Translations under genes and position numbers: made by a program | NCBI GenBank assembly: GCA_947588805.1 | Contig: CANPYR010000001.1 | Coordinates: forward strand, 124,001-188,000 | Length of the DNA: 64,000 nucleotides | Origin: an uncultured Clostridia bacterium | GTDB taxonomy: Bacteria > Bacillota > Clostridia > Oscillospirales > Ruminococcaceae | Direction of reading: 5' to 3' | In this document: positions 7,776 through 60,812 of the stretch, one piece after another | How positions within the stretch are numbered: position 1 is the first letter of the stretch | Layout: every line of letters starts with the position of its first letter | Notes under the pieces: model-generated | Database searches by the model: none | What the model was told of the DNA's origin: nothing | The model's input: only the letters and a program-made list of their open reading frames with translations

Positions 7776-7800
7776 ATTACCAACCTATTTGGTAGGTAAT
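7776..7800. promoter_or_regulatory. Palindromic operator, probable Rrf2-regulator binding site
   Basis: A 25-bp inverted repeat, arms ATTACCAACC and GGTAGGTAAT around TATTT with one mismatched pair, lies immediately after the -10 box and covers the likely transcription start. Its size and A/T-rich centre match the general layout of IscR/Rrf2-family operators. The operon's last gene encodes an Rrf2 protein with three cysteines, so autoregulation is the simplest reading (inference). Confidence 0.65.
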
Positions 7801-7818
7801 TATTCTTCGGACGGCTCT

Positions 7819-7885
7819 GGGCTTGATTTTACTGCTTTTTCTGTTATTTCTTACTTTTTCTGTTTCATGCCCTGAAATCAAGCCC
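7819..7885 (+). other. Inverted repeat in the sulfur-operon leader
   Basis: GGGCTTGATTT (7819-7829) is exactly complementary to AAATCAAGCCC (7875-7885), enclosing a 45-nt pyrimidine-rich loop in the 5' leader. It could form an 11-bp stem. It matches no riboswitch I know; SAM-riboswitch and T-box signatures are absent. Confidence 0.5.
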
Positions 7886-8008
7886 TACCCCCGAAAGCGT
7901 AAAGGACGGTGTTCGGAATATGAGCGGAAGACTGTTTATTCGGCTTCTTCGTGAAAATTTTCGGTTCGGACGAATGCGCGCTCTGAGAGTCACGGCTGAG
8001 AATACGGA

Positions 8009-8054
8009 TAATAAATAACAAATAATAAATAGCAAATAGCAAATAATAAATAAC
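8009..8054 (+). repeat. A/T-rich heptamer array upstream of the sulfhydrylase gene
   Basis: Six steps of AATAACA/AATAATA/AATAGCA at 7-nt period end about 20 nt before the start codon, directly ahead of the AAAGGAAA ribosome-binding region. It may keep the translation start unstructured (inference). Confidence 0.7.
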
Positions 8055-8076
8055 ATATATGAAAGGAAATTAAATT

Positions 8077-9369
8077 ATGAGCAACTATAAATTTGAAACT
8101 CTTCAGCTTCATGTCGGCCAGGAAAACGCGGATCCCGCTACCGATGCGCGCGCTGTTCCCATCTACGCGACCACTTCATACGTCTTTCACAACTGCGAAC
8201 ACGCCGCGGACAGATTCGGACTTCGCGACGCGGGGAACATCTACGGACGGCTTACAAATTCCACTCAGGACGTTTTGGAAAAGAGGATAGCGGCTCTTGA
8301 AGGCGGCGTGGGAGCGCTTGCTCTCGCTTCGGGGGCGGCGGCAATCACCTACGTCTTGGAAGCTTTGGGACAGAACGGCGGGCATTTCGTATCCCAGAAA
8401 ACGATCTACGGGGGAAGCTATAATCTTCTTGCGCATACGCTTCCGGGGCTCGGTATAACCGCGGATTTTGTGAACATTCACGATCTTAAAGAGACCGAAG
8501 CCGCGATAAAGCCGGAGACGAGAGCGATATATATTGAGACTCTCGGAAACCCGAACAGCGATATTCCGGACATTGACGCGCTTGCAGAGCTCGCTCACAG
8601 GCACGGGCTTCCGCTCGTAGTAGACAACACCTTCGGCACTCCATACCTCATCAGACCGATAGAGCACGGCGCGGACATAGTGGTTCATTCCGCTACAAAG
8701 TTCTTAGGCGGTCACGGGACTACGCTCGGCGGGATAATCGTGGATTCCGGGAAATTCGACTGGGCGGCGAGCGGGAAATATCCTGCGATAGCGGCTCCGA
8801 ATCCGAGCTACCACGGCGTTACCTTCACGGAAGCGGCAGGTCCCGCGGCGTTTGTCACATACATAAGAGCGGTGATTTTAAGAGATACCGGCGCGACGAT
8901 CTCTCCGTTTGCGGCGTTTCTGCTTTTGCAGGGCATAGAGACTCTTTCTTTGCGCGTAGAACGTCATGCGAAAAACACCGAAAAAGTTATCGAATATCTT
9001 TCAAACCATCCGCTTGTGGAAAAGGTCAATCACCCGTCGCTTCCGGATCATCCGGATCACGATCTGTATCTGAAATACTTCCCGAACGGCGGCGGCTCGA
9101 TCTTCACTTTTGATATCAAGGGCGGTCAGAAGGAAGCTCACAAATTCATAGACAGTCTTGAAATCTTCTCGCTTCTTGCAAACGTCGCGGACGTAAAGAG
9201 TCTTGTTATACATCCCGCGACGACTACTCACAGTCAGCTCAGCGAAGAGGAGCTTAAGGATCAGGGCATAGGTCCGAACACGGTAAGGCTTTCGATTGGT
9301 ACCGAGCACATCGACGATATTATTGCGGATCTTGAGAAAGGCTTCAAGGCGGTAGAGGAGTTGAAGTAA
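8077..9369 (+). CDS. metY: O-acetylhomoserine aminocarboxypropyltransferase (sulfhydrylase)
   Basis: 430 residues, typical for this Cys/Met-metabolism PLP family. It makes homocysteine from O-acetylhomoserine and sulfide. Visible signatures are LQLHVGQENADPATDARAVPIYATTS at the N-terminus (the long family form), ETLGNPN, DNTFGTPYL and the PLP lysine in HSATKFLGGHGT (K208). The AAAGGAAA site lies close to the ATG. It is first in an operon with cysK (40 nt downstream) and an Rrf2 regulator. Neighbouring cystathionine lyases share the fold, but the QxHxGQ start and the length favour MetY. Confidence 0.92.
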   Translation: MSNYKFETLQLHVGQENADPATDARAVPIYATTSYVFHNCEHAADRFGLRDAGNIYGRLTNSTQDVLEKRIAALEGGVGALALASGAAAITYVLEALGQNGGHFVSQKTIYGGSYNLLAHTLPGLGITADFVNIHDLKETEAAIKPETRAIYIETLGNPNSDIPDIDALAELAHRHGLPLVVDNTFGTPYLIRPIEHGADIVVHSATKFLGGHGTTLGGIIVDSGKFDWAASGKYPAIAAPNPSYHGVTFTEAAGPAAFVTYIRAVILRDTGATISPFAAFLLLQGIETLSLRVERHAKNTEKVIEYLSNHPLVEKVNHPSLPDHPDHDLYLKYFPNGGGSIFTFDIKGGQKEAHKFIDSLEIFSLLANVADVKSLVIHPATTTHSQLSEEELKDQGIGPNTVRLSIGTEHIDDIIADLEKGFKAVEELK

Positions 9370-51842: not shown

Positions 51843-51876
51843 TCCGACTTCCGACTTCTGATTTCTGTCCTCTTAT
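51843..51876. repeat. Heptamer-like array touching the ilvE stop codon
   Basis: TTCCGAC, TTCCGAC, TTCTGAT and TTCTGTC at 7-nt steps; the ilvE TAA (51873-51875) is at its edge. Confidence 0.7.
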
Positions 51877-52943
51877 TGCACCGTGACTCTCCAGCCGTAG
51901 GGATCGGCTTTCTTGCCCCACTGAATGCCCGTAAGCTCGTCGTAAAGCTTCTGGGTGAGCTCTCCTATCTTTCCCCCGCCGATATCTATAACTTCATCCT
52001 TATATCTGAGCTTTCCTACCGGCGATACGACTGCTGCGGTGCCGGTTCCGAAGACCTCTTCAAGAGCGCCGGTTCTTGCCGCTTCTATAAGCTCGTCTAC
52101 CGAGATCCTTCTCTCTTCGGTCTCATATCCCCAGTCGCGGCAGAGATGCAAAATGGAGTCGCGGGTGATTCCGGGAAGTATAGAGCCGTTTAACATAGGC
52201 GTTACAACCTTGCCGGAGATCTTGAACATTATGTTCATCGATCCCACTTCTTCTATATACTTTCTCTCAACTCCGTCGAGCCAGAGCGCCTGGGAATATC
52301 CGCTGTCATGCGCTTTGACCTGGGCGGCAAGAGAAGCCGCATAGTTTCCTCCGGTCTTTGCGTATCCCATTCCTCCGCGCACCGCTCTTACATACTCGTC
52401 CTCGATCCAGATCCCTACCGGGGCAAGTCCGCTCTCGTAATAAGCTCCGGACGGTGAGAGAATGATTATGAAAAGATAGGTCTTAGAGGGAGCTACGCCG
52501 AGATGGGGGTCGGTAGAAATGATGAACGGACGGATATAAAGCGAAGTGCCTTCCTCGTAGGGAACCCAGTCGCGATCGACGTTCACCAACGTCTTAACCG
52601 CCTGTACGAAGTCCTCCTCCGGCAGTCTCGGAATGCAGAGACGGTCGTTTGAATTGTTTGCGCGCTTCGCGTTCATGTCGGGTCTGAAGAGATAGACTTC
52701 GCCGTTATCTCCCCTGTAGGCCTTGAGTCCCTCAAACATCTCCTGACCGTAGTGAAGAACCATCGCCGCCGGGCTGAGAGTGATATCTCCGAACGGAACG
52801 ACTCTCGGGTCGTGCCAGCCCTTTCCCTCGGTGTAGTTCATGATAAACATATGGTCTGTAAAAATGTGCCCGAACCCTAAAGGCTCTCCCTTAGCCGGGA
52901 TCTTCTTAGGATTCTTGGTCTTTTCGATTTTGACGTCGAGCAT
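51873..52943 (-). CDS. ilvE: Branched-chain amino acid aminotransferase
   Basis: 356 residues, fold-type IV, long (BCAT/eukaryote-like) form. PGKGWHDPRVVPFGDITLSPAAMVLHYGQEMFEGLKAYRG is the family start; the PLP lysine is in GMGYAKTGGNYAASL; EEVFGTGTAAVVSPVG binds cofactor phosphate. It interconverts Ile/Leu/Val and their 2-oxoacids with glutamate. GGAGGG precedes the ATG. It follows the 2-oxoacid oxidoreductase genes by 93 nt and also has its own promoter, so it acts with that enzyme on the same 2-oxoacids. Confidence 0.96.
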   Translation of the reverse strand: MLDVKIEKTKNPKKIPAKGEPLGFGHIFTDHMFIMNYTEGKGWHDPRVVPFGDITLSPAAMVLHYGQEMFEGLKAYRGDNGEVYLFRPDMNAKRANNSNDRLCIPRLPEEDFVQAVKTLVNVDRDWVPYEEGTSLYIRPFIISTDPHLGVAPSKTYLFIIILSPSGAYYESGLAPVGIWIEDEYVRAVRGGMGYAKTGGNYAASLAAQVKAHDSGYSQALWLDGVERKYIEEVGSMNIMFKISGKVVTPMLNGSILPGITRDSILHLCRDWGYETEERRISVDELIEAARTGALEEVFGTGTAAVVSPVGKLRYKDEVIDIGGGKIGELTQKLYDELTGIQWGKKADPYGWRVTVQ

Positions 52944-52991
52944 AGATTAAACCCTCCAAAAAAAGAAATTATACTTTATAACGCACCTGCT

Positions 52992-53020
52992 ATTATACTA
53001 CGTTAAACCGGAAAATTCAA
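52992..53020 (-). promoter_or_regulatory. ilvE promoter
   Basis: Minus-strand TTGAAT (53015-53020), 17-nt spacer, TATAAT (52992-52997), between the oxidoreductase gamma gene and ilvE. It gives ilvE a T-box-independent transcript. Confidence 0.75.
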
Positions 53021-53035
53021 GCCCCTTTCGGGATT

Positions 53036-53575
53036 TTATTCCGAAAATCCGTATCCCGCTTCTATCGCCTTCATATTGAGCTCGATAAGATCGCGGTGCT
53101 TAGCCGATACGGTCTTTGAAAGCGCTTCTTTGAGTCCTTCCATCGATACCGCTCCGGTCTCCCTTATGACCTTTCCCAAAATGATCATATTCGCAAGAGT
53201 CGGCGTCCCGAGATCTCTCGCTATCTTTGTGGCGGGGATGTAAAACGCTTCGATATCGCTTCTTTTAACCTTTCTGTCGATAAGAAAGCTGTCTATAAAC
53301 ACCTTCGCCCCCGGAACCGCCGCGCTCTCGTATTTATCCAGGGACGGGAGATTCATAGCGATAAGAATGTCCGGATTTGAAACTATCGGAGACCCGACCG
53401 GGGTATCCGAAATTATAACCGAGCAGTTCGCCGTGCCGCCGCGCATCTCGGGGCCGTAGGACGGAAGCCACGATATCTGCTTCTGTTCTTCAAGCCCTTT
53501 GTATGCCAGCACCTTCCCCGCGAACAAAATCCCCTGACCGCCGAAGCCGGCTATAAGTATCTGCGTGTAAGCCAT
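53036..53575 (-). CDS. 2-oxoacid:ferredoxin oxidoreductase, gamma subunit (VOR type)
   Basis: 179 residues. The gamma fold begins ILIAGFGGQGILFAGKVLAYKGLEE and continues with WLPSYGPEMRGGTANCSVIIS, the common core of KorC/VorC/PorG. It completes the CoA-dependent oxidoreductase with the alpha, beta and ferredoxin subunits encoded directly upstream. AAGGAGG lies before the ATG, 1 nt after the beta stop. Confidence 0.93.
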   Translation of the reverse strand: MAYTQILIAGFGGQGILFAGKVLAYKGLEEQKQISWLPSYGPEMRGGTANCSVIISDTPVGSPIVSNPDILIAMNLPSLDKYESAAVPGAKVFIDSFLIDRKVKRSDIEAFYIPATKIARDLGTPTLANMIILGKVIRETGAVSMEGLKEALSKTVSAKHRDLIELNMKAIEAGYGFSE

Positions 53576-53576
53576 T

Positions 53577-54326
53577 TCAGTTCTCCTCCTTAGATTTATC
53601 GCGGTAAACTCCTAAAGGATAGTAGGGTATCATATCCGTCTCAATCCACTTAAGAGCGTTATCAGGAGTCATTCCCCAGTTGGTGGGGCAGCTTGAAATG
53701 ACCTCGATAAGCGAAAAGCCCCTGTTCTCGATCTGATTTCTGAACGCGCGGTTAATAGCCTTCTTCGCCGCCAGCACGTTCTTAACGTTATTTACCGCCA
53801 CGCGCTCGATATAATACGGCGCGTCAAGCGCTGAGAGAAGCTCGCAGACCTTTATCGGATATCCCACCGTCTTAACGTCTCTTCCGTAAGGCGAGGTCTG
53901 AGTTACCTGTCCGGGGAGAGAGGTCGGAGCCATCTGTCCTCCGGTCATTCCGTATATCGCGTTGTTTACGAATATAACGGTAACATTTTCATTTCTTGTA
54001 GCGGCGTGGACCGTCTCGGCCATTCCTATGGACGCAAGATCTCCGTCGCCCTGGTATGTAAATATTATCCTGTCCGGCATAGCTCTCTTAAGACCCGTCG
54101 CGACTGCGGGAGCGCGTCCGTGAGCGGCTTCGACCATGTCGCAGGAGAAATAGTCGTACGACATAACCGCGCAGCCTACGGGAGCAACGCCTACGGTCTT
54201 TCCGAGAATACCGAGATCGTCAATAGCTTCGGCGACAAGGCGGTGGATAATGCCGTGAGTGCAGCCGGGGCAGTAGTGAAGCGGAGCGTCGGTAAGCGCT
54301 TCGGGTTTTTTGAATACTGTCGCCAT
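53577..54326 (-). CDS. 2-oxoacid:ferredoxin oxidoreductase, beta subunit (thiamine diphosphate-binding)
   Basis: 249 residues. CPGCTHG near the N-terminus, GVAPVGCAVMSYDYFSCDMVEAAHGRAPAVATG and the thiamine-diphosphate/Mg motif GDGDLASIGMAETVHAA...NNAIYGMTGGQMAPT. It carries the reaction centre. The start overlaps the alpha stop codon by 1 nt. Sequence alone does not separate 2-oxoisovalerate from 2-oxoglutarate enzymes; the linked ilvE and T-box favour branched-chain substrates. Confidence 0.92.
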   Translation of the reverse strand: MATVFKKPEALTDAPLHYCPGCTHGIIHRLVAEAIDDLGILGKTVGVAPVGCAVMSYDYFSCDMVEAAHGRAPAVATGLKRAMPDRIIFTYQGDGDLASIGMAETVHAATRNENVTVIFVNNAIYGMTGGQMAPTSLPGQVTQTSPYGRDVKTVGYPIKVCELLSALDAPYYIERVAVNNVKNVLAAKKAINRAFRNQIENRGFSLIEVISSCPTNWGMTPDNALKWIETDMIPYYPLGVYRDKSKEEN

Positions 54327-55384
54327 CAGATTTTTCCTCCTTCCATGTCCTTTATCGCCTTAAGCACCTCTTCCGGAGACGGGATCATTCCCCCGACTCT
54401 GCAGCAAAGGCTTACGGGCTTTTTGCAGTCCTCCGCAAGACGAATATCCTCTATCATCTGTCCCATCGAAAGCTCGACCGAGACAAATCCCTTTACCTTA
54501 TCCGCGGCCTTTCTGATTGCTTCCTTCGGGAACGGCCAGAGCGTGATCGGCCTTATAAGTCCTGCTTTAATTCCCTGTTTTCTCGCTTCGGTTATCGCGT
54601 TTTTGGATACCCTCGCCGCTATCCCGAACGCTACCACGCATACGTCCGCGTCCTCCGTCATGTACTCCTCGCACATCGCTTCGTTTTCGGCTACGGTCCT
54701 GTATTTTTCATATCTCTCGATATTTTTCTGCTCAAGCTGCTCCGGAACAAGATAAAGCGAGTTGACTATATTATGCTCTCTCTTATTCTCCGTTCCCGTG
54801 ACCGCCCAGGGCTTTTCGGGCTTATATTCCACGGCTTCCGGAAGCTCTACCGGCTCCATCATCTGTCCCATCGTTCCGTCCGCTAAAAGCATAGCGGGCA
54901 TGCGGTACTTATCCGCAAGGTCGAAGGCCTTTACCGTCAGATCAGCCATCTCCTGGACCGAAGCCGGAGCCAAGACTATAAGATGATAATCTCCGTGACC
55001 GCCGCCCTTGGTCGCCTGGAAGTAATCCGACTGCGAGGGCTGGATACCTCCGAGACCGGGGCCTCCGCGCTGGACGTTTACTATAAGCGCCGGAAGATCG
55101 CACCCGGCAAGATATGAGATCCCCTCCTGCTTAAGGGAAACTCCGGGGCTTGACGAGCTCGTCATAGCCCTAAGCCCGGCCGACGCTACTCCGTAAACCA
55201 TATTTATCGCGGAGATCTCGCTCTCGGCCTGCAAAAAAGTCCCGCCTATCTTCGGCATTCTCTTGGACATATATGCGGCGATTTCGGTCTGCGGGGTGAT
55301 CGGGTAGCCGAAATAGTGGCGGCAGCCCGCTCTTATCGCGGCTTCGGCAATCGCTTCGTTGCCCTTCATTAAAACCTTTTCCAT
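54326..55384 (-). CDS. 2-oxoacid:ferredoxin oxidoreductase, alpha subunit (VorB/KorA type)
   Basis: 352 residues. FGYPITPQTEIAAYMSKRMP, FLQAESEISAINMVYGVASAGLRAMTSSSSPGVSLKQEGISYLAG and VNVQRGGPGLGGIQPSQSDYFQATKGGGHGDY are the hallmark substrate- and CoA-domain blocks. Length fits the short 352-residue alpha subunits that come with separate beta, gamma and delta chains. AAGGAGG precedes the ATG, 11 nt after the ferredoxin gene stop. Confidence 0.92.
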   Translation of the reverse strand: MEKVLMKGNEAIAEAAIRAGCRHYFGYPITPQTEIAAYMSKRMPKIGGTFLQAESEISAINMVYGVASAGLRAMTSSSSPGVSLKQEGISYLAGCDLPALIVNVQRGGPGLGGIQPSQSDYFQATKGGGHGDYHLIVLAPASVQEMADLTVKAFDLADKYRMPAMLLADGTMGQMMEPVELPEAVEYKPEKPWAVTGTENKREHNIVNSLYLVPEQLEQKNIERYEKYRTVAENEAMCEEYMTEDADVCVVAFGIAARVSKNAITEARKQGIKAGLIRPITLWPFPKEAIRKAADKVKGFVSVELSMGQMIEDIRLAEDCKKPVSLCCRVGGMIPSPEEVLKAIKDMEGGKI

Positions 55385-55394
55385 ACTTTCCTCC

Positions 55395-55601
55395 TTACTT
55401 CTCCACCGTTATAACGCAGTCGGGGCACATCGTCGCGCAGAACGCGCAGCCTATGCATTTTTCCTGATCGGTTATCTCGGCGGGCGAATGGCCTTTTTTG
55501 TTGATTTTGTCCTTGGCGATCACAATGAGCTTCTTCGGGCACGCGCTTACGCAGAGTCCGCAGCCCTTGCATACGTCGGTATTGAACGTCAGCTTCGGCA
55601 T
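55395..55601 (-). CDS. 2-oxoacid:ferredoxin oxidoreductase delta subunit (2x[4Fe-4S] ferredoxin)
   Basis: 68 residues with two cluster motifs, CKGCGLCVSACP and CIGCAFCATMCP. It relays electrons between the thiamine site and external ferredoxin. GGAGG lies 6 nt before the ATG. First of the four oxidoreductase genes. Confidence 0.93.
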   Translation of the reverse strand: MPKLTFNTDVCKGCGLCVSACPKKLIVIAKDKINKKGHSPAEITDQEKCIGCAFCATMCPDCVITVEK

Positions 55602-55613
55602 AAGTTACCTCCT

Positions 55614-55650
55614 TGTAGTTGTTAGTTATTAGTTATTAGTTGTTAGTATA
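55614..55650. repeat. Heptameric repeat (TTRTTAG) supplying the ATPase stop codon
   Basis: TTGTTAG, TTATTAG, TTATTAG and TTGTTAG at exact 7-nt steps, between the ATPase and ferredoxin genes. The ATPase stop TAA (55643-55645) is inside it, so the array lies within the operon transcript. Confidence 0.8.
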
Positions 55651-56317
55651 GATCGTAATACCTCTTTTGGACGTCGAGCTCGAATACATTATTAAGTTTT
55701 ACTGCTTTTGAAAGCTCTCTTTCCACTGCGGTGAATTTCAGCGGCAGACCGCTCATTTTACTGAGCTTCAGGCTTTTTTCCTGCCCGTCGTAAACCGTCT
55801 TAGGGGTAGTAAGCGCCGCAAGATTCGTGTTATTGACTATCCCGTTGAACTTTATCCCTCCCGCGCTCTCTATCTCCCTCATTACCTCCAAAGCGTCCTC
55901 GGGAGTGAGCGTAAGCGGGCGGCAGAAATTCGCGACGAAGAGCATGTCGTAGTCGTTCTCCTCGATTATATACGGCGCGAACCTCCCAAGAGCATACGCC
56001 CCGCGGTCGTCGCCGCCTATATCCAAAACCGCGTGACGAGAGCGGTTCTGGACTACTCCGTACATCTCTGAAGGAAGCGCCGGAAAATCTACGTTTGAAT
56101 TCGCGTACTCCGAAGAAATTATCTCTATACCCCTTGATCTTAAGAGCTCCTCCGAATCCTTTGTGCGAAAATACGGATTAACTATATCAAGGTCCGCGAT
56201 CACCACGCTCTCAAAGCTCTCTCTGAGCTTAAGCGCATAATTCACCGCAAGATTTGTCTTGCCGGAGCCGTAGTGCCCGGCGAAAAGAGTCGTTCGCCTG
56301 AATTCTATTTCAATCAA
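55643..56317 (-). CDS. ParA/CooC-like P-loop ATPase in the oxidoreductase operon
   Basis: 224 residues. Deviant Walker A HYGSGKTNLA (about 15-24), Walker B-like VVIADLDIVNPYFRT and HAVLDIGGDDRGAYALG. The layout suggests a MinD/CooC-type ATPase of the metal- or cofactor-insertion group. Linkage to a multi-cluster oxidoreductase suggests a role in assembling or activating it (inference). The start is uncertain: the TTG at 56317 abuts GGAGG, so initiation may occur slightly further on. Confidence 0.75.
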   Translation of the reverse strand: MIEIEFRRTTLFAGHYGSGKTNLAVNYALKLRESFESVVIADLDIVNPYFRTKDSEELLRSRGIEIISSEYANSNVDFPALPSEMYGVVQNRSRHAVLDIGGDDRGAYALGRFAPYIIEENDYDMLFVANFCRPLTLTPEDALEVMREIESAGGIKFNGIVNNTNLAALTTPKTVYDGQEKSLKLSKMSGLPLKFTAVERELSKAVKLNNVFELDVQKRYYDLY

Positions 56318-56356
56318 ACCTCCGTATAAAAATTCAAATCCGAATATGTATCTTTT

Positions 56357-58630
56357 TTACAGCTTGTTTCTCTGGATCTTTCCGGATATCGTCTTCGGAA
56401 GCTCGTCCCTGAACGCTATCACTCTCGGATATTTATACGGCGCGGTGTGGCTCTTGACATAGTTCTGGATCTCTTTTTTAAGCTCCTCGGAAGCTACCGT
56501 TCCCTTTGTCAGCACTATGCTCGCTTTTACTATCTGCCCTCTTATCTCGTCCGGCACCGCCGAAACTCCGCATTCCAAAACATACGGCAGCTCCATAATC
56601 ACGCTCTCTATCTCGAACGGCCCGATACGGTATCCCGAGGACTTGATAACGTCGTCTATTCTCGATACGTACCAGAAGTATCCGTCCTCGTCGCGCCATG
56701 CGGTATCGCCGGTGTGGTAATAACCGTCGTGCCAGGCCTCGCGTGTGAGATTTTCGTCAAGATAGTATTCCTTATAAAGCCCTATCGGAACCTCCTCCGA
56801 GGTCTTTATGCAGATCTCTCCGACTTCGCCGTTCTGAACCGGGTTCCCGTCGGGATCAAGAATGTCGATATCGTACTGCGGCGAAGCCTTGCCCATGGAG
56901 CCGTACTTCGGTATGTCGCCGTAGAGGTTTCCTATGACGAGAGTGGTCTCGGTTTGGCCGAAGCCCTCCATTATCTCAAGCCCGGTCGCCTGCTTGAACT
57001 GCTTCGCGACCTCGGGATTAAGAGCTTCTCCGGCAGTAGTCATGTGATGGATGGAGCTGAGATCGAATACCGAGAGATCCTCCTTGATCATCATCCTGAG
57101 CATTGTCGGCGGGGCGCAGAATGTGGTTATATTATACTTTGCAAACATCGGCAGAATATCCGCGGCGTCGAATTTGTCAAAGTCGTAGACGAATACCGCT
57201 CCCTCGCAGAGCCATTGCCCGTAGAGCTTTCCCCAGAGGGATTTTCCCCACCCGGTATCGGATATCGTGAGATGAAGCCCGTCGCGCTCGCAGCAGTGCC
57301 AGTACTTCGCGGTGACGAAATGCCCGAGGGCGTAGGTGTGAGCGTGAGCCGCCATCTTAGGATTCCCGGTAGTGCCGGACGTGAAGAACATGAGCGCGGT
57401 ATCGGATCCCGCAGAGCAGCCTTCCGGGCGCTCGAATTTACCGGTGTAAAGCTGGTACTCGTTATCAAAATCGTGCCAGCCCTCTCTTGCGCCGCCTACA
57501 AGTATCTTCATCTTAACGCTCGGACAGTTAAGAGCCGCTTTCTCAGCTATCTCAGCTACGTCTCCGTCGGCAGTGCAGAGTATTGCGGAAACTCCCGCGC
57601 GGTCGTAGCGGTATTCAAAATCGTGCTGCTTGAGCTGATTTGTAGCCGGGATTGCGATAGCTCCGAGCTTATGAAGCGCCACCATCGCAAACCAGAACTG
57701 ATAGTGCCGCTTAAGAACCAGCATTACCCTGTCCCCGCGCTTTATCCCGAGACTCTTAAGATAATTCGCGGTCTGGTTTGAAGCTCTCTTTATATCTTTA
57801 AAAGTAAATCTTCTCTCGACCTTATGCTTATCGACGTGTATCATCGCAAGCTTATCCGGGAACTTATCCGCAATAGCGTCAACGCAGTCGAAGCCGAAGT
57901 TAAACGTCTCGGTATCGTGGAACTTCATGTCGGTAAGCTTGCCGTTTTCATCCTCGACAAAGTCCACGAACTTCTCCGTAAGAAGTCGCTCTTTTTTCGG
58001 CCTGTTCGCCTGGATAAGAGAAGTGCGTGCGGTCTCTTCGCTCTCGTTCTCGCCGGGAAGGACTACCGCCACAAACGTGCAGTCCCTGCCGTTTACTGCT
58101 ATCATGCCGTGAGGAGTCGAGGAGTTATAATAAATGCTGTCGCCCTCGTTCAGTATCTCCACATGGCTTCCGACCTGCACCTTTAAGCTTCCCGAGATGA
58201 TTATATCGAACTCCTGGCCGCTGTGCTTAGTCAGGTGTATCGGGACGTTCTGCTGAGATTCTATATAATCGTATGTCACCCAGTAGGGCTCCGCGATCTT
58301 ATCCCTGAACTTAGGAGCGAGATTCGCGATATCGATCCCCTTCTCGTGCGCAGTGACCTGTCCCTGACCTCTTCTGGTGAGGGTATAGCTTGAAAGTCTC
58401 GCCGCGGTCCTTCCCTCCAAAAGATCGGTAAGATCCACGTCGAACGCGAGCGCGCACTTGTGGATAAACGTGAACGGAAGGTCGGCCTGAGCGCTCTCGT
58501 ATTCAAGATAATCCTGTTCCGAGACCTCGGTCTTTTCAGCCATTTCGGCAGTCGTCCAGCCCATTATCTCCCGCATTTCACGGATACGGGCCGCCATATC
58601 GCGGAGCTGAGTTGATGAGTTGTTGGCCAT
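56357..58630 (-). CDS. Acyl-CoA synthetase with N-terminal XRE-HTH and cupin domains
   Basis: 757 residues from the ATG at 58630, selected for AAAGGAG 8 nt upstream. Residues 9-70 are an XRE helix-turn-helix (REMREIMGWTTAEMAEKTEVSEQDYLEYE), about 118-185 a cupin (HSGQEFDIIISGSLKVQVG, NEGDSIYYNSSTPHGM), about 225-757 an adenylate-forming ligase with FFTSGTTGNPKM, GFGQTET, YHTGDTAW and catalytic-lysine PKTISGKIQRN, closest in style to medium-chain acyl-CoA synthetases. It should activate a carboxylic acid to acyl-CoA. A T-box leader precedes it and the VOR genes follow. Confidence 0.9.
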   Translation of the reverse strand: MANNSSTQLRDMAARIREMREIMGWTTAEMAEKTEVSEQDYLEYESAQADLPFTFIHKCALAFDVDLTDLLEGRTAARLSSYTLTRRGQGQVTAHEKGIDIANLAPKFRDKIAEPYWVTYDYIESQQNVPIHLTKHSGQEFDIIISGSLKVQVGSHVEILNEGDSIYYNSSTPHGMIAVNGRDCTFVAVVLPGENESEETARTSLIQANRPKKERLLTEKFVDFVEDENGKLTDMKFHDTETFNFGFDCVDAIADKFPDKLAMIHVDKHKVERRFTFKDIKRASNQTANYLKSLGIKRGDRVMLVLKRHYQFWFAMVALHKLGAIAIPATNQLKQHDFEYRYDRAGVSAILCTADGDVAEIAEKAALNCPSVKMKILVGGAREGWHDFDNEYQLYTGKFERPEGCSAGSDTALMFFTSGTTGNPKMAAHAHTYALGHFVTAKYWHCCERDGLHLTISDTGWGKSLWGKLYGQWLCEGAVFVYDFDKFDAADILPMFAKYNITTFCAPPTMLRMMIKEDLSVFDLSSIHHMTTAGEALNPEVAKQFKQATGLEIMEGFGQTETTLVIGNLYGDIPKYGSMGKASPQYDIDILDPDGNPVQNGEVGEICIKTSEEVPIGLYKEYYLDENLTREAWHDGYYHTGDTAWRDEDGYFWYVSRIDDVIKSSGYRIGPFEIESVIMELPYVLECGVSAVPDEIRGQIVKASIVLTKGTVASEELKKEIQNYVKSHTAPYKYPRVIAFRDELPKTISGKIQRNKL

Positions 58631-58673
58631 TTGATCTTCTCCTTTAAAATAAAAAGTGTTGATTTGGGACATT

Positions 58674-58705
58674 AAAAAACCGTCCCAAAGAAAACTTTGA
58701 GACGG
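58674..58705 (-). terminator. T-box-controlled intrinsic terminator
   Basis: On the minus strand CCGTCTCAAAG and CTTTGGGACGG (58680-58705, one G-U pair) are followed by TTTTTT (58674-58679). The first arm overlaps the 3' side of the antiterminator sequence, the standard T-box switch. Confidence 0.88.
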
Positions 58706-58962
58706 GAATTCCCGCGGTACCACTCAAATTGCAGAAAACTCTGCCGCTTAGCGGCTTGCATTTTGATATACAAAAATACAAAATATGTAAGCCTGCCGCT
58801 GTAACGCGCGGACGCGAGCAGTCCTAATTAACTTCAGACCGCCGGCTCGGAAGTGATACGAGCGGCACTGCCCCAACCGGATTTCAGCGTTCCCGGCTCT
58901 CTGAATGGCGCAAATAAAGCGGCTCCGTCTTCGTCATCGCCTTTATCGGTTATAACTTTAAA
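58674..58962 (-). promoter_or_regulatory. T-box riboswitch leader, probable specifier ATC (isoleucine)
   Basis: The minus strand carries the T-box sequence AGTGGTACCGCGGG (58711-58724), whose centre pairs with the uncharged tRNA acceptor end. Upstream, GGCGATGACGAAGACGG and CAGAGAGCCGG are Stem I landmarks. The specifier-loop strand reads CGTATCACTTCCGAGC (58845-58860); by the usual pattern of codon, A-C, then CTTCTGAGC-like sequence, the specifier is ATC (58855-58857). GTA (Val) is the next possibility. The leader induces the downstream operon when cognate tRNA is uncharged. Confidence 0.88.
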
Positions 58963-58966
58963 GTAT

Positions 58967-58995
58967 ATAATACCACGCCGCAAAGCCGCTGTCAA
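58967..58995 (-). promoter_or_regulatory. Promoter of the T-box operon
   Basis: Minus-strand TTGACA (58990-58995), 17-nt spacer, TATTAT (58967-58972). The transcript starts about 330 nt before the synthetase ATG and covers the T-box. Confidence 0.85.
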
Positions 58996-59709: not shown

Positions 59710-59762
59710 ATTCTCTAATTTCTAATCTCTAACTTCTAACCCTCTAACTCTCTATCCTCTAA
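59710..59762. repeat. Heptameric array forming the 3' end of the ATPase gene
   Basis: TTCTCTAATTTCTAATCTCTAACTTCTAACCCTCTAACTCTCTATCCTCTAA-type units at 7-nt steps. The last eight codons and the stop of the gene at 59736 lie inside it. Confidence 0.75.
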
Positions 59763-60755
59763 ACGCGCAAAATTCATCCCTTCAATATATATCTTCTCAA
59801 GCTCGTCGTGAGTTTGCTTTGCTTCTTTGAGGGCTTCTACCGCCGCGCCGCTCAGCTCTTCTTTTAGCGCCGCGTTGAAGCTCAGCTTCTTCTTACTTTC
59901 TCTGAGCTTATTTCGGTCGTAGAATCTCATCCCGTTTATCTTCTTGAACGCCCCGGGATCATCCCCCGAAACAAACGCCGCGCCTGCGGATTCTATCACC
60001 ACCTCGCCGTATACGCTGCCGGGCGTTCTCGGGTCCTTGGAAGCGGTTACGTCATACCCCGCGGCCGCCGCAGCAAGCGATATCCCCTTGAGCAAAAAGT
60101 CCGAAACCGCCGCGCAGGGATCATTCACCGAAAAGATCCTGCAATCCCCGAGCGCGCCGTCAATTCTCAGTATTCCCTTCGGCGTGACGGAGGAGATCTG
60201 TTTTAGGGATATTTTCCCGCGCTCGCCGCCGGTCTTAGGGAAAAGCCGCTGTGAGAGCCGTTTTATGTAGCCTTCGGCCTTTTCGCGGAGCATGGCGCTT
60301 TCGCCTATCGATAACATCTCCCCGCTTAAGCTGTGGATGGCTGCGAGGTATCTTCTTACGCTTGCGTGGAGTTCTGCGCAGCGGTCGCTCAGGGCGACGA
60401 TATCCTCAGTCCGCGATCTGAGAAAGCTTTCATCCCAGAATTTTCCGAGATTGATTATCGACTGTTTTGCGCCGGGGTAGATCGGTTCAAAGACGTGCGG
60501 GGAAGTTCCGTCGACGATTATCACGCCGGTTTTTCTGAAAATCACCGCGTCGAGCGAGTCCGGGTCCGACGAGCAGTAATAAAGCTCCGGTTCGTCGTCG
60601 CGGCGGTCGGCTGCGGCGCGCTTCATAAGAGTTGATTTTCCGGTTCCGGGACCGCCTTTGAGGATGTAAGTGTAAGCCGCGGTGCGGATCTCCTCGCCGA
60701 ACGAAGTTTCAAAGCCCGTGGGAGTCGGGATCCCTAAAAAATATTTTTTTATCAT
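59736..60755 (-). CDS. P-loop ATPase of unknown role (PRK06851-like)
   Basis: 339 residues from the ATG at 60755 (GGAGG 5 nt upstream; an earlier ATG overlaps that site). Walker A GGPGTGKST lies at 34-42, then IVDGTSPHVFEPIYPGAKQSIINLGKFWDE and a second half (about 190-330) with RIFSVNDPCAAVSDFLLKGISLAAAAAGYDV. The layout matches an uncharacterised Clostridia ATPase family with tandem P-loop-like halves; the second has no clear Walker A here. The C-terminal residues (LEDRELEG) come from the heptamer array, so the end may be recently altered. Confidence 0.75.
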   Translation of the reverse strand: MIKKYFLGIPTPTGFETSFGEEIRTAAYTYILKGGPGTGKSTLMKRAAADRRDDEPELYYCSSDPDSLDAVIFRKTGVIIVDGTSPHVFEPIYPGAKQSIINLGKFWDESFLRSRTEDIVALSDRCAELHASVRRYLAAIHSLSGEMLSIGESAMLREKAEGYIKRLSQRLFPKTGGERGKISLKQISSVTPKGILRIDGALGDCRIFSVNDPCAAVSDFLLKGISLAAAAAGYDVTASKDPRTPGSVYGEVVIESAGAAFVSGDDPGAFKKINGMRFYDRNKLRESKKKLSFNAALKEELSGAAVEALKEAKQTHDELEKIYIEGMNFARLEDRELEG

Positions 60756-60812
60756 AGCTGCCTCCATGGTTGGTTTTTATATTATTTTATGCGGAGGACG
60801 GAGGGAGTGATA

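Follow-up and report, generated by a model that had tools for sequence, protein, structure and literature searches.

An operon under an isoleucine T-box as the probable isoleucine arm of branched-chain-acid assimilation in Clostridia

In the rumen, 2-methylbutyrate is converted to isoleucine, isobutyrate to valine and isovalerate to leucine, and work on ruminococci from the 1960s on linked branched volatile fatty acids to branched-chain amino acids (BCAA), according to the available part of PMC7356843. The closest characterised ligase, MbcS of Staphylococcus aureus, selectively activates 2-methylbutyrate and isobutyrate, uses butyrate and isovalerate poorly and leaves acetate unused (PMC10026030, part of the text). 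The accessible part of the GapMind paper (PMC7311316) includes isoleucine from propionate, and a route from 2-methylbutyrate is not seen there; a gut reconstruction leaves ferredoxin and isobutyrate unmentioned in its main text. Here we describe an operon in a window of 64,000 nucleotides from an uncultured Clostridia bacterium of the Ruminococcaceae (assembly GCA_947588805.1, contig CANPYR010000001.1, positions 124,001 to 188,000), the whole stretch of DNA that was analysed. The operon reads T-box leader, AMP-forming acyl-CoA synthetase (ACS), P-loop nucleoside triphosphatase (NTPase), the four subunits VorDABC of a 2-oxoacid:ferredoxin oxidoreductase (VOR) and ilvE. Judged from its sequence and from its relatives, it very probably forms the isoleucine arm of a system for the reductive assimilation of branched-chain acids. 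Our literature search, confined to open-licence papers, turned up no paper that describes a T-box ahead of VOR genes or of ACS genes for branched acids, and the terms 'ferredoxin' and 'acyl-CoA' had zero occurrences in the main texts of PMC2494555 and PMC3766115.

The leader and its isoleucine codon

The leader of the operon is a genuine member of the T-box family RF00230 and exceeds the curated cut-off (Table 1). Genome-wide, ten matches to this family were found at E <= 0.001, the operon leader among them, and three of the ten lie over the cut-off. An earlier sequence-only reading of this DNA had placed a promoter and a T-box leader ahead of the operon, with the T-box core at 58711-58724 and a terminator at 58674-58705, and had proposed the T-box covariance model as the way to fix a specifier best read as ATC. 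The features found agree with it: the promoter is a near-consensus one, the core at 58722-58713 falls inside the predicted interval, the terminator stem lies at 58705-58680, and the family model matched the leader, with the codon frame supplied by an alignment of related leaders. A promoter scan upstream of the operon returned two promoter-like sites per 501 bases versus 0.7 expected.

The segment CGUCUCAAAG is claimed by both the terminator and the antiterminator fold, and UGGU is unpaired in the latter, giving an antiterminator with a UGGN bulge set against an exclusive terminator. The UGGU of the T-box core would pair with the ACCA end of tRNA. Stem I folded alone was not better than shuffled sequences (z 0.63; 146 of 200 shuffles were as stable), so the evidence for Stem I is comparative. 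Of the 35 tRNA matches in this incomplete genome 30 could be typed, and none of the 30 was tRNA-Ile.

The specifier lies in the internal loop of Stem I beside a conserved helix. The four bases that follow the position after the codon pair 4/4 with the GAAG strand in 171 of 173 related leaders, with compensatory changes, and sliding the helix by 1 to 3 bases leaves full pairing in just 0 to 6 of the 173. Since this helix pairs in one frame only, the frame is fixed, and it gives AUC, the codon already read from the letters, for isoleucine rather than a non-branched amino acid. Read in the same frame, other T-boxes of the genome carry GUC before valS and UAC before tyrS, and a CUC T-box heads a leuA-leuC-leuB-ilvBN-ilvC run (codons and gene names by eye); leuD is not among the genes listed for that run.

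Codon-paired ligase clades in relatives

We compared the locus across 41 genomes (the own genome, 24 of its genus and 16 of other families), from which 22 full-length ACS loci were fetched, one per genome, at >=59% identity (L027-L048); two further genus genomes hold ACS fragments. A T-box core precedes the ACS in 21 of the 22, and all 21 align with an ATC specifier. No T-box core was found in eight further loci (L049-L056), which are more distant, unfused or partial. In one genome (G009) ilvE does not follow.

The public genomes gave the same picture. At least 590 candidate loci came up, and the 80 best were used; most come from metagenome-assembled genomes that bear the names Clostridia, Oscillospiraceae or Ruminococcus, and the sample names of many refer to ruminant gut. 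In 70 of these 80 loci a core was found no more than 700 nt upstream of the ACS; 69 leaders were readable, every one as ATC, and the remaining one (L081) is truncated. Among the ten loci without a core, one (L095) carries a T-box whose specifier is ATC by eye, one (L100) offers just 252 nt of upstream sequence, and in five (L125, L128, L131, L134, L146) the ACS starts 45-90 nt after another AMP-ligase gene and has no leader of its own. In the 47 public loci whose downstream sequence extends for 8.9 kb or more, all four Vor genes lie on the ACS strand in 41, IlvE in 36 and a second ACS (ACS2) in 34. One locus holds a more distant VOR cluster (L083:11377-13934, alpha 59%), convergent to the Ile-type ACS rather than downstream on its strand.

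The two synthetases differ in their codons. Counting only genes with a T-box core, ACS leaders carry ATC in 75 of 77 cases (one of the others is truncated, and one is misaligned by a base and reads ATC in another alignment), and the 78 ACS2 leaders carry GTA in 69 and GTC in eight, with one truncated. Two extra leader rows read GTA before IlvE (L079) and ACT inside the Vor genes (L110), the latter probably by chance. In a FastTree tree of 178 ACS rows, 160 of them labelled (86 Ile, 74 Val; some genes entered twice, leaving 83 and 71 distinct sequences), the specifier amino acid changes once, at a split with support 100. Of the 18 rows without a label, 6 lie on one side of this split and 12 on the other.

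Only two alignment columns are fixed differently between the clades at over 90%, column 58 (K/R, in the HTH region) and column 462, the sole one in the catalytic domain, which is Gly in the Ile clade and Ala in the Val clade. Aligned with E. coli Acs (12 ACS rows), Gly462 corresponds to Val310, Gly558 to Trp414 and Ala533 to Val386, which we take to be the residues of the acetyl pocket. The solved structure 3ETC, presumably an AMP-binding protein of Methanosarcina acetivorans that prefers 2-methylbutyrate, likewise has Gly at the position of column 462. The simple reading would be a smaller pocket for isobutyrate in the Val clade and a larger one for 2-methylbutyrate in the Ile clade.

A third arm may be marked by leucine codons. 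Before a LeuA-like gene, 17 of 20 leaders have CTC and three have CTG. Among 30 LeuA-like open reading frames (such as L057:8704-10080, L064:10465-11853 and L061:5342-6796; two lack the N-terminal motif region and two the C-terminal one), RDGxQ and HxH, which we take to be isopropylmalate synthase motifs, are degenerate in all rows covering them, and the C-terminal motif STDIIGASIRAY is kept. The protein reads as a pseudoenzyme and perhaps senses leucine. An acyl-CoA ligase with an N-terminal region that looks TIM-barrel-like by eye was seen at L057:10110-12557, L064:11857-14367 and L061:6797-9256, followed in two of the three loci by an amidohydrolase-like gene; this ligase is perhaps the isovalerate, or leucine, arm.

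One relative, G023, displays what we read as the whole three-arm design. In a single locus, a Leu T-box is followed by the LeuA-like gene, a TIM-barrel-like AMP-ligase and an amidohydrolase-like gene (the latter two named by eye), an Ile T-box heads the ACS, and a Val T-box heads ACS2-NTPase-VorDABC-IlvE. Leaders of all three kinds, Ile, Val and Leu, also occur in L144, from Erysipelotrichaceae bacterium NK3D112, a record that carries no MAG mark. We think it likely, if less so than the role of the operon itself, that many rumen and gut Clostridia salvage isoleucine, valine and leucine in this three-armed way. Each tRNA would switch on its own acid-activating ligase, with VOR and IlvE shared, and the T-box codon would annotate the substrate of the ligase: 2-methylbutyrate for isoleucine and isobutyrate for valine, set by the Gly/Ala swap in the acyl pocket, and for leucine a TIM-barrel/AMP-ligase fusion accompanied by the catalytically degenerate, perhaps leucine-sensing LeuA.

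Direction of the pathway and the classical route

The steps would run as follows. Uncharged tRNA-Ile would bind the leader through the AUC specifier and the UGGU bulge, the antiterminator would form and the operon would be read. The ACS would activate external 2-methylbutyrate, the ferredoxin-dependent oxidoreductase would carboxylate 2-methylbutyryl-CoA to 3-methyl-2-oxopentanoate, and IlvE would aminate the latter to isoleucine. In relatives, the second ACS clade, under Val T-boxes and presumably acting on isobutyrate, stands ahead of these same VOR and IlvE genes; the LeuA-like gene headed by Leu T-boxes sits next to the third ligase.

An anabolic direction, switched on when isoleucine is scarce, is well supported. 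Several features favour carboxylation: the isoleucine T-box, a ligase that spends ATP, the presence of IlvE, a Val-coded paralogue ahead of those VOR genes and the way the genes are distributed. The ATP cost of an AMP-forming ligase suits uptake and not fermentation. The core of the sequence-only reading, from acid to acyl-CoA to 2-oxoacid to amino acid, gains from the comparison with relatives, because AUC stands in every readable leader of the ACS clade and valine specifiers in the paralogous clade, because the genes occur where ilvC and ilvD or ilvA are missing, and because a characterised member of the ligase family activates 2-methylbutyrate and isobutyrate (available part of PMC10026030). 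That reading had the pathway lead into isoleucine, valine and leucine together; the isoleucine arm stands for this operon, but the valine and leucine arms are separate and lie in relatives.

It had also called for a genome search for ilvA, ilvBN, ilvC and ilvD and expected the operon to bypass the usual ilv route. By model, the own genome has ilvA, which scores 490 bits with TIGR01127 (cut-off 378.75) and has what looks by eye like a RidA-type neighbour, as well as ilvD and an ilvC that is divided between two contig ends. Its ilvBN and leu genes were recognised by eye. The idea that it lacks the ilv route, or ilvA, was therefore rejected, and with all four present the operon would be a parallel supply of isoleucine. 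In relatives that have no ilvA over its cut-off, or neither ilvC nor ilvD, the operon can be a true bypass. Within the genus, VOR alpha was matched at E <= 1e-60 in 18/18 ACS-carrying and 0/7 ACS-lacking genomes, all seven of the latter 100% complete. Threonine deaminase, searched with the one model TIGR01127, exceeds the cut-off in all seven non-carriers and does not reach it in 10 of the 18 carriers (Fisher p 0.02), three of these ten being 84-92% complete; cimA is over its cut-off in 0/25 genus genomes. Nine of the 41 genomes lack ilvC and ilvD jointly, and five such genomes (G023, G026, G034, G035, G040) hold the T-box-ACS unit with AUC. G023 is 100% complete and its ilvA is not over the cut-off either. 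Among 245 genomes of the order, ilvC exceeds its cut-off in 19 of 90 ACS carriers versus 99 of the 155 remaining genomes (p 8.7e-11 by Fisher test), a carrier being a genome whose best ACS match reaches E <= 1e-239, a cut chosen after the scores were known, and the T-boxes of most carriers being unchecked; among carriers of >=95% completeness it is present in 13 of 47.

A number of observations weigh against the assimilatory role. The own genome need not use the operon for isoleucine, as it has threonine ammonia-lyase, ilvC and ilvD; 8/18 genus carriers keep ilvA and 19/90 order carriers keep ilvC. The order-wide contrast depends on the carrier definition just given, and both Fisher tests ignore the relatedness and incompleteness of the genomes. 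No T-box was found before the ACS of G027, by core search or by Infernal, nor before that of L079, L091 and L147, and 5 of the 47 long public loci have no Vor alpha downstream on the ACS strand. In G026, G027, G034, G035 and G040 the ACS is a lone gene and the VOR lies elsewhere; four of these are among the five genomes that have the Ile T-box but neither ilvC nor ilvD. Finally, VOR beta, gamma and delta were not seen over any curated cut-off and the ACS also scores below the MbcS cut-off, so family membership does not prove the substrates of ACS and VOR.

These points bear differently on the alternatives. In the own genome, the ACS could activate propionate, the VOR could make 2-oxobutyrate, and isoleucine could be completed from it by ilvBN, ilvC and ilvD of the classical route. 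The necessary ilv genes are there, and isoleucine from propionate is included in GapMind, citing Monticello 1984 (PMC7311316, part of the text). The same route would end blindly at 2-oxobutyrate in the five T-box-ACS genomes (AUC) without ilvC and ilvD, in four of which the ACS lies apart from the VOR, and the best family match of the ACS is MbcS. Moreover, Trp414 of Acs is replaced here by Gly558, which presumably opens the pocket beyond C2-C3. For the own genome the propionate alternative is weakened, and we consider it unlikely overall.

We give each of the remaining two alternatives very little weight. VOR operons are usually annotated as catabolic, with branched 2-oxoacids from isoleucine, valine and leucine oxidised to acids for energy, and the reaction is reversible as a matter of general knowledge; yet an isoleucine T-box would then switch the operon on under isoleucine scarcity, the AMP-forming ligase would cost ATP, ilvC tends to be missing in carriers and a Val-T-box paralogue precedes the same VOR genes. 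Alternatively, the ACS could make 2-methylbutyryl-CoA mainly to prime branched fatty acid synthesis, the CoA ester being replenished from isoleucine by VOR and IlvE. Its best NCBIfam match, MbcS, does feed lipid synthesis in S. aureus (PMC10026030, part of the text), but control by uncharged tRNA-Ile would increase the use of isoleucine just when it is scarce, and an ilvE in the operon and the split between Ile and Val codons suit amino acids better.

Features of the operon and comparison with known systems

Family searches bore out the gene list of the sequence-only reading (acyl-CoA synthetase, P-loop ATPase, four oxidoreductase subunits and IlvE). Among the operon proteins, only VOR alpha, which belongs to the VorB subfamily model, and IlvE exceed curated cut-offs; delta was below cut-off among the matches listed (25 of 60 models).

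Table 1. Features of the operon and its leader (window coordinates).
Feature	Position	Strand	Evidence
Promoter TTGACA-17-TATTAT, TG before -10	58967..58995	-	11/12 consensus bases
T-box leader (Stem I, Stem III, antiterminator)	58695..58946	-	RF00230, 97.0 bits, cut-off 93, E 4.4e-20
5' strand of specifier helix, GAAG, pairs with CUUC	58929..58932	-	171/173 leaders
Specifier codon AUC (Ile)	58855..58857	-	related-leader alignment; pairing of following helix
T-box core UGGUACCGCG (also given as TGGTACCGCG)	58713..58722	-	sequence, RF00230 match, fold
Intrinsic terminator	58680..58705	-	stem of 11 pairs; mutually exclusive with antiterminator
ACS, AMP-forming, N-terminal XRE-HTH and cupin; Ile clade, Gly462	56357..58630	-	
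P-loop NTPase between ACS and VOR genes, conserved	55643..56317	-	28 homologues aligned
VOR delta, 4Fe-4S ferredoxin-like	55395..55601	-	family searches
VOR alpha	54326..55384	-	NF005507 'VorB', 562.6 bits, cut-off 399
VOR beta, thiamine diphosphate (ThDP)	53577..54326	-	below cut-offs of all 15 NCBIfam models matched
VOR gamma	53036..53575	-	best NCBIfam match 118.5 bits vs 235; another 75.4 vs 81.1
Possible separate ilvE promoter TTGAAT-17-TATAAT	52992..53020	-	10/12; may be chance
Branched-chain amino acid aminotransferase IlvE	51873..52943	-	NF009897, 500 bits, cut-off 307

MbcS (NF047394) is the best NCBIfam match of the ACS, at 440.5 versus a cut-off of 850, a best match and not a membership, and 3ETC is the nearest solved structure by sequence for both ACS clades (626 and 628 bits). 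The first 200 codons of the ACS encode a fused XRE-HTH and cupin, a feature absent from the earlier reading, and the fused ligase may additionally regulate transcription. In other genomes, for instance at G035:C29:7163-7696 and 7791-9356, a separate XRE/cupin-region match immediately precedes a ligase that lacks the fusion.

For the P-loop NTPase, family searches gave no match and the best hit of a PDB sequence search had E 0.68. Its predicted model has a predicted local distance difference test (pLDDT) score of 87.0, with SRP/FtsY GTPases and HypB as nearest folds, a likeness at fold level only. The idea that it drives low-potential electron transfer found no support here and was dropped. A gap of 92 nt precedes ilvE and contains a promoter-like site, so ilvE may also be transcribed alone; the scan that gave this site returned six sites versus 4.3 expected. 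Upstream of the operon lies a P-loop protein (59736-60767) nearest to PRK06851 models and below their cut-offs, and a defence-family check of it was empty.

If this reading holds, the T-box codon is a read-out of direction and substrate from sequence alone and provides each arm with candidate genes. It also opens an old question, that of the organisms in which BCAA are rebuilt from isoacids, to direct testing. Genome tools would probably class such organisms as auxotrophic, and the presence of a VOR need not imply BCAA fermentation.

With the rumen isoacid route (PMC7356843, part of the text) the proposed system shares the three acid-to-amino-acid conversions. That chemistry has long been known; among the open-licence papers searched, the unreported part is T-box control and the pairing of ligase with codon, and it is candidate genes and tRNA-coded control for each arm, neither met in that literature, that set the present system apart. 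MbcS and 3ETC resemble the ACS as AMP-forming ligases, but MbcS feeds lipids, whereas the ACS of the operon has an XRE-cupin N-terminus, is followed by VOR and ilvE and occurs as two codon-separated paralogues. The classical BCAA T-box leaders, such as that of the leu-ilv run of the own genome (G000:C16), belong to the same RNA family and share its architecture and the rule of one amino acid per leader. They control synthesis from pyruvate and threonine, whereas the T-box described here would control the recovery of carbon from external branched acids.

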